From contig LJXT01000018.1 of NCBI GenBank assembly GCA_001314815.1, positions 1 to 38,607 of the forward strand: 38,607 nucleotides of DNA, given 5' to 3'. Position 1 is the stretch's first letter. Each line of letters opens with the position of its first letter. This stretch comes from Algoriphagus marincola HL-49 (lineage in GTDB: Bacteria > Bacteroidota > Bacteroidia > Cytophagales > Cyclobacteriaceae). The notes under the pieces were generated by a model. That model saw only the letters and a program-made list of their open reading frames with translations. It had not been told where the DNA came from and made no database searches. Of this stretch, positions 8,328 to 15,083 are shown piece by piece. The translations under genes and the position numbers were made by a program.

Positions 8328-9623
8328 ATGAACATCATCATCTTATACGAAGCCTTTCTCAAGAGTACTGGAGTCAGTACTGATACACGTAAAATTGAAC
8401 CAGGAAATCTGTTTTTCGCACTGAAAGGTCCAAATTTTGATGCGAATGAATTTGCTGAGAAGGCTCTTGAAATGGGAGCTTCAGGAGTGGTGGTCGATGA
8501 CCCCGCTTACTATTTGGAAAATGATGAGCGCTATTTTATCTGTCAGGATGCTTTGGTTTGCTTGCAGAAACTGGCCAATTATCACCGACATCAATTCGAC
8601 ATACCTATCATTGGTCTTACCGGAAGCAATGGAAAGACTACTTCTAAAGAGCTACTGAATGGGGTATTGAAGACTAAATTCAAGACCTTGGCCACAGTCG
8701 GCAATCTCAATAATCACATTGGAGTTCCCCTGACCTTGCTTTCTCTCAAGAAAGAACACGAACTGGCTATCATCGAAATGGGAGCCAATAAGCAAGGGGA
8801 CATTCAGGAGCTTTGTGAAATTGCCGAGCCCACACATGGTTTCATTACCAACATTGGCAAAGCTCATTTAGAGGGAATGGGTGGGCCTGAAGGGGTTTTG
8901 AAGACAAAAACAGAACTCTATCAGCACATTCGTGAAAAAGATGGGACGGTTTTTATCAATAGCCAGGATCCCATCTTAAGCAATATGGTCAAGCGGTTCG
9001 AAGAGCCCGTGCTTTATCCTTCCAAAGGGGATTTTTGCGAAGTACAATTTCTGGGTGCCGATCCTTTCGTAAAGTTTTCGGTCGAGGGAGTGGAAGGGGA
9101 GCAGCTATCTTCCCTAATCGGAGCTTATAATTTTGGAAATATTGCCACTGCGCTTACTATCGGGAAGTTTTTTGGAGTGGATATGAATCGAGCGGTGGAG
9201 GCAGTTTTGAATTACAAACCTTCCAATATGCGCTCCCAATTGGTCGAAAAGAGGAGTAACTTAATCATTTTGGATGCTTACAATGCCAATCCATCAAGCA
9301 TGGAAGCAGCGATTAGGACCTTTGGTCAGATGAAAGGGAAGAAGCATAAAATGATCATCCTAGGAGACATGTATGAGTTGGGGGAGCATGCCGAAGCGGA
9401 GCATGCAAAATTAGGAGAGATAGTCAGCGAGTATGAGTTTGATAAGGTTTGTTTCACAGGAAAGCTCATCGTTTCTGCACTCACTAAGGCACCGAATGCC
9501 CTGTATTTTCCCGATCCTTTTTCATTCCGAAATTGGCTTCAGGACAGTCAACTGGAAGACTACATGATTCTGATCAAAGGAAGTAGAGGGATGAAGTTGG
9601 AGGGGCTGGTTGATTTTATTTGA
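8328..9623 (+). CDS. murF: UDP-N-acetylmuramoyl-tripeptide--D-alanyl-D-alanine ligase
   Basis: MurF adds D-Ala-D-Ala to the UDP-MurNAc-tripeptide, the last cytoplasmic step of the peptidoglycan precursor peptide. The 431 residues show an N-terminal substrate domain (GVSTDTRKIEPGNLFFALKG, 15-34), the ATP-binding loop TGSNGKTT (98-105), the central NHIGVPLTLL and EMGANKQGDI motifs, and the C-terminal ligase domain with LDAYNANPSSMEAAI and GDMYELG. All diagnostic motifs are intact and the length is normal. The gene is not in a mur cluster here. It converges on the vapC-type gene, and the two stop regions overlap by 8 bp. Confidence 0.96.
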   Translation: MNIIILYEAFLKSTGVSTDTRKIEPGNLFFALKGPNFDANEFAEKALEMGASGVVVDDPAYYLENDERYFICQDALVCLQKLANYHRHQFDIPIIGLTGSNGKTTSKELLNGVLKTKFKTLATVGNLNNHIGVPLTLLSLKKEHELAIIEMGANKQGDIQELCEIAEPTHGFITNIGKAHLEGMGGPEGVLKTKTELYQHIREKDGTVFINSQDPILSNMVKRFEEPVLYPSKGDFCEVQFLGADPFVKFSVEGVEGEQLSSLIGAYNFGNIATALTIGKFFGVDMNRAVEAVLNYKPSNMRSQLVEKRSNLIILDAYNANPSSMEAAIRTFGQMKGKKHKMIILGDMYELGEHAEAEHAKLGEIVSEYEFDKVCFTGKLIVSALTKAPNALYFPDPFSFRNWLQDSQLEDYMILIKGSRGMKLEGLVDFI

Positions 9624-10035
9624 TGGTGGAAAGGAAAGCTTCGGGAGTAAAAATTGGAATTTGAGACTTTTTATAATCAGCTAAGTTTCGAGTGATAATA
9701 CCTTTGATTTCCGGATTTTGAACAGCTGAAAAATGCTGAATAGCATCTTCAAAATCAGAAAATCCACTTTTCAATGTTGCAAAAATCTCTTTTTCGGAAA
9801 CGGGGAGGATTTTACAGAAGCTTACCAATTCGGTGATCTTTTTTAATGCTCCATCATTTCCATATAACTTTCTGAGAAGGTAATGTACATTAGCCACTGT
9901 CAATGATGAAAGAAAAATCTGGATTTCACCATTATAAGCCAAGCCGAATATACTCCTTGCTGGTACATTAAAAGGTTCCCTTTTCAAAAGGAAATCTAAA
10001 ATTACATCGGAATCTAAAAAAATATTAGAGTCCAT
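9616..10035 (-). CDS. PIN-domain toxin, VapC type (locus 1)
   Basis: A 139-residue PIN-domain protein, expected to be a Mg-dependent endoribonuclease. The acidic positions are visible: FLDSDVILDFL near the N-terminus (Asp in the first strand), FSDFEDAIQHF in the middle (about residue 88-98), and ITRNLADYKKSQIPIFTPEAF at the end, where many VapCs have NxxDF. It overlaps the upstream antitoxin gene by 11 bp. It resembles the PIN protein at 24991-25395 in the C-terminal ITRNxxDxKxSQIPxFxP region, so the two pairs look paralogous. Confidence 0.85.
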   Translation of the reverse strand: MDSNIFLDSDVILDFLLKREPFNVPARSIFGLAYNGEIQIFLSSLTVANVHYLLRKLYGNDGALKKITELVSFCKILPVSEKEIFATLKSGFSDFEDAIQHFSAVQNPEIKGIITRNLADYKKSQIPIFTPEAFLSTIK

Positions 10036-10291
10036 ACTTTTCCATTAATGCTTTGGTCAGCTCTTCTTTGTAATCAAATTCCCCTTCATGTTTTAGGCAT
10101 CCTTCTAATTTTAAAAAACTTTCTGGAAGTGGTTTCCTTTCTTTTTTTACGGAATCTTCCTTTTTCTCAAGTACTAAGAGTTTAAAATAATTTTCTACCA
10201 AGGAAGACAAACTTTGCCCTTGTTGGGCAGCATATTCCTTTGCTTTTTCGATCACGTCTTTTTCAAGTGTGAGTGTTAACTTGGTGTTCAT
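10025..10291 (-). CDS. VapB-type antitoxin, DUF6364-like (locus 1)
   Basis: The protein has 88 residues. It begins MNTKLTLTLEKDVIEKAKEYAAQQGQ, a ribbon-helix-helix-like start in which the first strand contacts DNA, followed by SLSSLVENYF. The C-terminal half (PESFLKLEGCLKHEGEFDYKEELTKALMEKYG) would bind the PIN toxin. The paralogue at 25392-25643 begins MKTKLTLTIEKNIIEKAKEF. Two ACACGTGT boxes sit directly upstream, the nearer one one base from the start codon, as expected for autorepression. Confidence 0.85.
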   Translation of the reverse strand: MNTKLTLTLEKDVIEKAKEYAAQQGQSLSSLVENYFKLLVLEKKEDSVKKERKPLPESFLKLEGCLKHEGEFDYKEELTKALMEKYGL

Positions 10292-13901: not shown

Positions 13902-13936
13902 TAAAAAAACAAAAAGCTCCTCTATTGAGAAGCTTT
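13902..13936 (-). terminator. Terminator after tRNA-Ala
   Basis: On the minus strand, AAAGCTTCTC/GAGGAGCTTT form a 10-position stem with one mismatch and loop AATA. The run TTGTTTTTTT follows it. It lies 3 bases past the encoded CCA of the tRNA. Confidence 0.8.
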
Positions 13937-13938
13937 GA

Positions 13939-14017
<79 letters not shown>

Positions 14018-14034: not shown

Positions 14035-14107
14035 ATTCAAACCGATGAACTTCCCGAATGCTTTCGGGACGCTCTAGTCCCGATGACTATCGGGAAGCTA
14101 ATCCCCC
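14035..14107 (-). pseudogene. tRNA-Ala fragment with two palindromes replacing its arms
   Basis: On the minus strand this segment splits completely into five blocks: 12 nt identical to the tRNA-Ala 5' end (14107-14096), an 18-nt palindrome TCCCGAT/ATCGGGA (14095-14078), CTAGAGCG identical to the tRNA (14077-14070), an 18-nt palindrome TCCCGAA/TTCGGGA (14069-14052), and 17 nt matching the variable loop and T-arm start with 3 mismatches (14051-14035). The palindromes take the place of the 7-nt D-loop core and of the exact 17-nt anticodon arm. The 3' acceptor half is absent. It cannot be a working tRNA. Confidence 0.8.
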
Positions 14108-14157: not shown

Positions 14158-14778
14158 TTACTCTTGGCTGTAATTAATCCGGGTCATAATACTTCTTCCC
14201 AAGGTGACCTCATCTGTAAACTCCAGTTCACCCCCTACAGGGATACCTCTTGCGATGGTACTGATACTTACGCCTGTTTCTTTTAGTCTTTTGCCCAAGT
14301 AGAAAGCAGTGGTATCTCCTTCCATGGTAGCGCTTAGCGCCAAAATGATTTCCTTAACCGGTTCATTCTTAGCAGATTCAGAAATTCTGCTTACGAGTGA
14401 TTCGATGGTTAGTTCTTCAGGACCAATCCCTTGAATAGGTGATATGACACCGCCCAAAACATGATATTTCCCATTGTATTGATTGGTATTTTCGATAGCT
14501 AATACATCCCTGATATCTTCTACCACGCATATGGTGGACGAGTCACGCTTATGACTTTTGCAGATGCTGCATTCCTCATCATCGGAGATAGTATGGCAAG
14601 TCTTGCAATATTTGATTTCTTGCCTCATTCGAGTCAGTGATAGCGCCAAAGCCTCTGTATGAGCTTCGTGTTGTTTAAGAAGGTGAAGGGCGAGTCGAAG
14701 AGCAGTTTTCTTGCCGATGCCTGGCAGCCTGGATATTTCGGTAACGGCATCCTCGATTAGTTTTGAAGGGAGATTCAC
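14158..14778 (-). CDS. recR: Recombination mediator RecR
   Basis: RecR, with RecF/RecO, loads RecA at gaps in damaged DNA. The 206 residues show the N-terminal helix-hairpin-helix LPGIGKKTA (18-26), a C4 zinc motif (Cys58, 61, 70, 73) and a Toprim domain (VVEDIRDVLAIE to STIARGIPVGGELEF). The start is GTG at 14778, giving (M)NLPSKLIEDAV as in homologues. An ATG at 14835 would lie inside clpS and add 19 unrelated residues. clpS ends 11 bp upstream, so the two form an operon. Confidence 0.95.
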   Translation of the reverse strand: MNLPSKLIEDAVTEISRLPGIGKKTALRLALHLLKQHEAHTEALALSLTRMRQEIKYCKTCHTISDDEECSICKSHKRDSSTICVVEDIRDVLAIENTNQYNGKYHVLGGVISPIQGIGPEELTIESLVSRISESAKNEPVKEIILALSATMEGDTTAFYLGKRLKETGVSISTIARGIPVGGELEFTDEVTLGRSIMTRINYSQE

Positions 14779-14789
14779 AAATGCATAAA

Positions 14790-15083
14790 TTAAGTAATAG
14801 TGGCCTGAATACCGGCATCCAGAATGGCCTCGCACATGGGTTTCAAGTCCTCAAAACTCCCCTTTTTTACGGCACATTTACCCTTGAAGTGGATGATCAG
14901 CGTACACTGCTCGGCTTGCTCGCGGGTATGCTTGCACACTTTCATCAAAACATGGGTCACATGATCAAAAGTATTCACATCATCATTGAACACTACTAGG
15001 TCATGTTCCTCCAGATCCAGCAAATCCTCTATTAAAATTTCTTCTTCCTCCAGCTGGGGTAGATTGTTTTGAAGGTAAATCAT
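14790..15083 (-). CDS. clpS: ATP-dependent Clp protease adaptor ClpS
   Basis: The 97-residue protein has an acidic N-terminal extension (PQLEEEEILIEDLLDLEE) and the ClpS core. The core carries LVVFNDDVNTFDHVTHVL (substrate pocket with NDD), MKVCKHTREQAEQCTLIIHFKGKCAV and the closing helix LKPMCEAILDAGIQA. ClpS delivers N-degron substrates to ClpA-type unfoldases. A TAATTTTG box (minus strand) ends 4 bases before the ATG. recR follows in the same operon. Confidence 0.94.
   Translation of the reverse strand: MIYLQNNLPQLEEEEILIEDLLDLEEHDLVVFNDDVNTFDHVTHVLMKVCKHTREQAEQCTLIIHFKGKCAVKKGSFEDLKPMCEAILDAGIQATIT

Follow-up and report, generated by a model that had tools for sequence, protein, structure and literature searches.

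A hairpin-substituted tRNA-Ala copy in Algoriphagus marincola and probably related tRNA-adjacent GIY-YIG cassettes of Bacteroidota

Palindromes in place of tRNA arms

The window analyzed here, i.e. the whole 38,607-nt stretch of Algoriphagus marincola HL-49 DNA, carries on its minus strand, in this order, an ORF that we take to be recR, a 73-nt segment and tRNA-Ala(GGC) (Table 1). A preliminary description, made from the letters alone, had divided this segment into tRNA pieces of 12, 8 and 17 nt and two 18-nt palindromes. Reading the minus strand bore this out, with pieces and palindromes alternating in the order given in Table 1. Comparison with the neighbouring tRNA-Ala(GGC) further confirmed that the palindromes stand exactly for a 7-nt D-loop stretch and for the 17-nt anticodon arm. 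The copy ends after the third piece and is devoid of the 3' strands of both the T-stem and the acceptor stem. An ordered alignment of the segment to tRNA-Ala scored 42. The highest score among 5000 dinucleotide shuffles was 32, and among 3825 tiles of equal length from elsewhere in the window it was 29, so that the tRNA matches, which might have been fortuitous, are better than chance.

Table 1. Features of the recR/tRNA-Ala locus in the window, in minus-strand order
Feature	Positions	Strand	Basis
Presumed recR, synteny anchor, start codon uncertain	14158..14835	-	ORF list; used to find relatives
Hairpin-substituted, 3'-truncated tRNA-Ala copy	14035..14107	-	Alignment; orthologous copy in A. 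formosus and A. marincola
tRNA piece 1, GGGGGATTAGCT, 12 nt, 5' end	14096..14107	-	Identical to first 12 nt of tRNA-Ala
Palindrome 1, TCCCGATAGTCATCGGGA, 18 nt, replaces D-loop stretch CAGCTGG (7 nt)	14078..14095	-	Sequence
tRNA piece 2, CTAGAGCG, 8 nt	14070..14077	-	Identical to tRNA-Ala
Palindrome 2, TCCCGAAAGCATTCGGGA, 18 nt, replaces whole 17-nt anticodon arm CTACACTGGCAGTGTAG	14052..14069	-	Sequence; relatives
tRNA piece 3, AGTTCATCGGTTTGAAT, 17 nt, variable region and part of T-loop	14035..14051	-	14/17 identical to tRNA-Ala
Intact tRNA-Ala (GGC)	13939..14015	-	ARAGORN; Rfam RF00005, 61.3 bits
Terminator-like hairpin and T-run 3' of tRNA-Ala	13903..13938	-	Site of extra 548 nt in A. formosus

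The tRNA finders recognized the intact tRNA-Ala, and neither ARAGORN nor Rfam reported a tRNA within the segment, permissive settings included. At E-values up to 5, the only Rfam match to the segment was a viral tRNA-like element far below its cut-off, and we therefore rejected its assignment to a tRNA or a known RNA family. In the predicted RNA fold, palindrome 1 pairs with palindrome 2 (-33.3 kcal/mol, z -4.4) and no cloverleaf forms, which led us to reject a cloverleaf RNA for the window copy. Between the two fates offered by the preliminary description, a new structured RNA is accordingly unsupported for this copy, while a dead by-product fits, because the hairpins have changed in the orthologous copies of the two nearest relatives. 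These are the upstream copies of A. formosus and of a related A. marincola record. The 18-mer of palindrome 2 recurs in both, with one outer change in A. formosus; in this species the outer pairs of both hairpins are broken, and in the A. marincola relative one hairpin pair is now a wobble. The window segment is a truncated and decaying copy, not a unique object.

In the window copy, as read by eye, the letters on either side of palindrome 1 are AGCT and CTAG and those beside palindrome 2 are AGCG and AGTT; the tetranucleotide GTAG is absent from the hairpin feet.

The locus in relatives and its GIY-YIG gene

Searching with recR gave 80 kept loci in named records, mostly of Algoriphagus, and 69 of these were examined together with the window (70 loci). 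Outside this set stand L100 and L103, where the tRNA lies on the opposite strand, L108–L112, where no tRNA was found, and L113–L116. Hairpin-bearing tRNA-Ala copies were counted by a script requiring a CCCG-type hairpin beside tRNA words, which scores L102 as lacking them though three copies lie there. By this count they occur at 43 of the 70 loci; 30 loci have them upstream of the tRNA and 28 have them downstream. The preliminary description had suggested a search of relatives for tRNA pieces around such hairpins. With mostly one fixed border, and with comparable cases at other tRNAs (see below), these loci also support its view that arms are replaced at arm borders and not randomly decayed.

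Across the 70 loci, the T-arm core matched 146 times, and 66 matches were intact by filter. Excluding one chance match and three intact tRNAs whose arm is a variant leaves 76 non-intact copies. In 49 of them an 18-nt TCCCG-N8-CGGGA hairpin directly abuts the missing arm's 3' border (24 different sequences); its 5' neighbour is AGAGCG in 23 of these 49 copies, with variants in the others. The remaining 27 have hairpins that are changed, nested or shifted, further hairpins in the variable region, or none at the arm; three copies (two at L066, one at L076) have an arm without it. The copies upstream of the tRNA retain its 5' end but not the acceptor 3' strand, and several species contain arrays of three such copies with periods near 76–83 nt.

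A small GIY-YIG ORF or fragment, located by HMM search, lies 3' of tRNA-Ala at 25 of the 70 loci. Where it directly follows the tRNA, it starts about 50 nt past it, beyond the terminator. In most cases the nuclease frame runs on at its 3' end into the D-arm of a tRNA-Ala copy truncated at the 5' end, which yields C-termini such as YIDWLISSAG. This downstream copy has a hairpin at the anticodon arm and sometimes additional ones; its 3' end is intact and followed by a terminator. Hairpin copies are present at 23 of the 25 loci with a GIY-YIG ORF or fragment versus 20 of the 45 without (Fisher 8e-5, uncorrected for phylogeny and, since the species are related, not a true probability). The window is among these 20.

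The encoded protein has about 80–90 aa and a single domain. All three proteins compared with Pfam, from genes outside the window, matched GIY-YIG (PF01541; E 1e-15 to 4e-19), two of the three also matched T5orf172 just over the cut-off, and one alone had an NCBIfam match to group I intron endonucleases, below the cut-off. The nearest solved structures by sequence are weak matches, namely SLX1 (E 0.0018) and the UPF0213 protein EF2693 (E 0.004), and two PHROG homing-endonuclease families were hit over residues 1–35 and 1–31 only (E 1.6e-4 and 1.8e-4). Seven columns (Y, Y, G, R, H, E and K), which presumably represent the catalytic-type residues of GIY-YIG enzymes, are near invariant (60–62 of 62 proteins). 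Judged by its codons, the nuclease is under purifying selection, with a median dN/dS of 0.15 and no value over 1 among the 59 usable pairs of 325 in the Ala lineage.

Other tRNA types, hairpin stems and transfer between species

Similar layouts are found at Asp, Gly, Val, Lys, Leu, Met, Ser and Pro tRNA genes in Bacteroidota. Three of the four small GIY-YIG ORFs in the genome of the window adjoin a tRNA-Leu(CAA) and two tRNA-Met(CAT) genes. Hairpin-bearing partial copies occur there at these three tRNAs and at a third tRNA-Met, a tRNA-Ser and the tRNA-Ala; the other scanned tRNAs of this genome have none, except for matches within the Val and Lys clusters. The scan covered most of the 36 tRNA matches of the genome. 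Tandem hairpin-substituted copies precede tRNA-Met and tRNA-Ser genes of the same genome, and a tRNA-Met-like array lies at a contig end (L123, G000:C106; L126, G000:C166; L127, G000:C179).

Eight other genomes gave 45 matches; 30 loci are listed, 22 of them with a small ORF, and an intact same-strand tRNA lies upstream in 16 of these 22 (three being tandem copies at one place). A relative of the nuclease was detected in 103 of 198 genomes drawn from the phylum. Among the best 30 loci of this sample, one belongs to the genome of the window itself, and 25 of the 29 others have an intact same-strand tRNA upstream. When all 92 unique GIY-YIG places are considered, the recR-found loci included, such a tRNA stands upstream of 82 and of the other 10 none; in 54 of the 92 the tRNA-to-ORF distance is within 130 nt, mostly 40–56 nt. 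As an exception to the usual order, one GIY-YIG ORF (L202) has no upstream tRNA that we found, and its 3' end enters an intact tRNA-Val.

Outside the Ala locus, an insert between collinear tRNA pieces 3' of the ORF was measured at 28 of 41 places, and the other 13 had no measurable insert. At eleven places of Asp and Gly tRNAs, of which two are in tandem, exactly the 8-nt T-arm stretch CGAGTTCG is replaced by a 14–19-nt CCCG-type hairpin, imperfect in one case. The whole 17-nt anticodon arm is replaced at a Val, a Pro and an Ala place in distant families, with a hairpin of another type at Pro, and a second Ala place has 20 nt replaced. The replaced native stretches differ in inverted-repeat character, which is clear for the 17-nt arms (5–7 end pairs), modest for the 8-nt stretches (2–3 end pairs) and absent for the D-loop stretch of the window (1 end pair).

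We compiled 31 distinct anticodon-arm hairpins from Ala copies, 24 of them retrieved with a pattern in which the outer five pairs are fixed, and 7 variants added by hand. Pairing holds in 98.4% of the scored cells, the outermost T-A pair being unscored in 30 of the 31 owing to an alignment gap, and the covariation score is 0.363 versus 0.094 for shuffled and at most 0.045 for slid alignments. The covariation is due to the two inner pairs, at which both partners differ in 16 and 17 sequences, and it is these that carry the evidence, because the selecting pattern fixes the outer stem in 24 of the 31. Pairing and covariation together indicate that the stem persists through changes in its sequence. 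An apparent retention of native loop letters in the swapped hairpins, conspicuous on inspection, proved weak in a permutation test (mean common stretch 3.21 versus 2.93 permuted; 23 of 5000) and was not relied on.

Palindromes of the form TCCCGA-N6-TCGGGA occur at 30 places in the genome of the window, and the reversed control occurs at none. Across the 198 genomes, uncorrected for phylogeny, the mean per genome is 4.65 with the nuclease versus 1.13 without it, and the palindrome is present in 75 of 103 versus 41 of 95 genomes. Palindromes of the same family also stand at non-tRNA sites of the window's genome, changing there too, and other hairpin types (CCTGCC/GGCAGG and CCGCC/GGCGG) are found in tRNA copies.

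Several individual palindrome sites may be recorded here. A third TCCCGA palindrome lies in the window at 1008–1025 in the context CCA[palindrome]TGG, with a second near-palindrome at about 1052, and a similar stretch in another genome (G258) is 79% identical with a different core. At one non-tRNA site (L013, compared with L268), the relative's palindrome CCCCGATAGCTATCGGGG is lengthened in the genome of the window, with near-duplicate arms on both sides. This genome also holds a longer repeat with the palindrome inside, composed of GGTCAGATGG or a variant, TCCCGAAA(G/T)CTTTCGGGA and (T)GACGATTAACCCCGA (L004, L006, L014, L128, L129, L130 and L132). In another genome, three TCCCGATAGCTATCGGGA palindromes at an exact spacing of 403 nt (G120:C44:277431-278254) are perhaps a tandem array.

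In a nuclease tree of 77 rows, few columns and many weak forks, sequences group by tRNA type, requiring 23 changes compared with 44.9 after shuffling (0 of 200 shuffles as low). A. formosus and the A. marincola relative share 95.9% identity in recR and 70.5% in the nuclease, whereas A. marincola and A. limi share 75.7% in recR and 93.2% in the nuclease. The similar tract of the latter pair begins at the terminator ahead of the nuclease, extends through the pseudo-tRNA and is about 92% identical outside the hairpin core, which differs at 5 of 8 positions (CTAGCTAG versus ACACCTGT) with pairing kept; A. limi has the same core in its other downstream copy. We read this one dissected case as a transfer of the nuclease between species, which would have happened at least once, since sorting of old tandem copies would not leave the nuclease so much more alike than recR. 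Identities of recR and the nuclease correlate with a Spearman coefficient of 0.55 (171 pairs from 19 Ala loci), so that vertical descent is also common, and most of the history may be vertical with loss.

Compared with A. formosus, the window matches over a left flank of 222 nt at 97.3% (A. formosus positions 3–225) and a right flank of 158 nt at 91% (773–931). Between these flanks, A. formosus has 548 nt made up of a pseudo-tRNA, a GIY-YIG gene and a pseudo-tRNA, and the window lacks these 548 nt. A search for the window's right flank in the A. marincola relative returned nothing beyond 73 nt at 68%. For the nuclease-less locus of the window, a deletion between repeats and an original empty site both fit. 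A comparison of Asp cassette presence between the genome of the window and A. formosus was dropped because the former's tRNA-Asp has no orthologous flanks (the left one matches at about 65% over 127 columns and the right one at about 81% over 37). The two nearest relatives have two and three intact tandem tRNA-Asp genes ahead of a GIY-YIG gene and a pseudo-tRNA-Asp (L254 and L259).

The tandem copies, the GIY-YIG gene across the tRNA in relatives and the apparent gene transfer between species belong to a larger system that lay beyond the view of the preliminary description. As for the palindromes, they may themselves be mobile or trade places with hairpins, along the lines of its proposal.

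A proposed mobile cassette and its alternatives

The window segment is probably, in our estimation, a fading relic of a family of mobile GIY-YIG cassettes directed at tRNA genes. A full cassette lies 3' of an intact tRNA and comprises the terminator, a single-domain GIY-YIG gene and a 5'-truncated second tRNA copy. The nuclease frame usually ends within this second copy, in which a hairpin, in most cases one with a CCCG/CGGG stem, has taken the place of the anticodon arm or T-arm; the tRNA 3' end with a second terminator closes the unit. In some genomes it is accompanied, 5' of the tRNA, by copies with hairpins of this kind that retain the 5' end but are without the 3' end, sometimes in tandem. 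In favour of this reading stand the recurrence of the layout, the tie of nuclease lineages to tRNA type, the purifying selection on the nuclease, the one transfer between species and the published analogue SegB (see below). The nuclease may be expressed through leakage across the tRNA terminator and may break DNA of its own tRNA-gene type. Repair by recombination among the repeated tRNA pieces could then install, multiply and delete cassettes and shed truncated copies, and a swapped arm, by whichever route it came in, would disable the extra tRNA copy and create a different site that is harder to cut again. Several observations count against this model. The intact tRNA remains beside cassettes, which is a difficulty, since it would be cut were its arm the target; hairpin copies exist at nuclease-less loci; and palindromes of the same family stand away from tRNA genes. 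Also unfavourable are the correlation between recR and nuclease identities, the 10 of 92 GIY-YIG places with no upstream tRNA, the 13 of 41 places with no measurable insert and the short match of the window's right flank in the A. marincola relative.

More speculatively, the nuclease might cut at the feet of extruded tRNA-gene arms and thereby exchange hairpins, making the CCCG/CGGG hairpins exchangeable marks, the scattered Bacteroidota palindromes products or substrates of the same enzyme family, and the whole a new class of mobile element. Whole-hairpin exchange would yield the core difference between A. marincola and A. limi within an otherwise similar tract. We nevertheless regard this as unlikely.

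Alternatively, the palindromes could be independent, self-spreading hairpins of the REP kind, for which damaged tRNA copies, being hairpin-rich and free of selection, serve as landing places, with the GIY-YIG gene a separate passenger. This possibility, of which we are doubtful, agrees with the same palindromes at non-tRNA sites of the genome, where at one site both arms are longer than in a relative, with the other hairpin types seen in tRNA copies, and with the 20 of 45 Ala loci that have hairpin copies and no nuclease. It does not account well for the constancy of the borders within each tRNA type next to GIY-YIG genes of distant families, for the higher frequency of palindromes in nuclease genomes (4.65 versus 1.13; 75/103 versus 41/95, uncorrected for phylogeny), or for window hairpin feet without a GTAG tag. 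Another proposal, in which the pseudo-tRNAs work as structured RNAs (as processing signals, as 3' ends or as decoys for enzymes that cut tRNA) and selection maintains the hairpin, appears improbable. The near-complete pairing of the 31 hairpins (98.4% of cells), their covariation (0.363 versus 0.094) and the tandem arrays would suit it, but 24 of the 31 were chosen by a pattern fixing the outer stem, presence is patchy (43 of 70 loci), the A. formosus orthologue of the window copy has unpaired changes, the window RNA is predicted to fold palindrome to palindrome, and upstream copies have no acceptor 3' strand. Ordinary tRNA duplication and decay, with palindromes arising by chance mutation, would match the truncated, decaying state of the window copy and is nonetheless very improbable, being contradicted by an alignment score beyond all shuffles and by identical borders recurring in many species and at other tRNAs.

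Integrative elements that use tRNA 3' ends as attachment sites resemble the favoured cassette: one end holds an intact tRNA, and a displaced tRNA 3' end marks the other. The cassette differs in its size of roughly 0.4–0.55 kb, in that no integrase was seen in the cassette, and in a far copy that extends back to the D-arm and has a swapped arm. The closest described case appears to be SegB of T-even phages, a free-standing GIY-YIG homing endonuclease encoded beside tRNA genes (PMC13096335). Its cleavage was measured, and the segment is proposed to be amplified when the 5' region of the tRNA recombines with the nuclease gene's own 3' end. The cassettes share its geometry as given there: a GIY-YIG gene beside tRNA genes, repeats of the tRNA 5' region at the nuclease 3' end, and tandem amplification that includes intact tRNA genes. 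Unlike SegB as that text presents it, they lie in bacterial chromosomes, encode a nuclease of about 80–90 aa known from sequence alone, have a second, hairpin-substituted tRNA copy and form lineages tied to tRNA type. UPF0213/SLX1-type GIY-YIG proteins offer the nearest, weakly matching structures; Slx1 acts on branched DNA, and the part of the source at hand mentions no link to tRNA genes (PMC7017083). REP/RPE palindromes with RAYT transposases are likewise short, scattered over genomes and suspected to be mobile (PMC3733652), but the GTAG tag is missing at the window hairpins and the palindrome here replaces a native arm.

Among the matches listed from the open-access literature (PMC, with few subscription papers), considered by title, start of abstract or terms, none describes bacterial tRNA/GIY-YIG/pseudo-tRNA cassettes or arm-for-palindrome swaps. 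If the favoured reading is correct, a very small mobile cassette in many Bacteroidota would leave an essential tRNA intact while multiplying around it. Such cassettes would provide a direct route to the duplication, damage and clearance of tRNA genes and raise a testable question about hairpin exchange in DNA, and many small 'GIY-YIG' genes with C-termini read from tRNA sequence would share one explanation.

Elsewhere in the window, two adjacent minus-strand ORFs of 139 and 88 aa (9616–10291) form a pair that we assume to resemble a PIN-domain toxin with its antitoxin.
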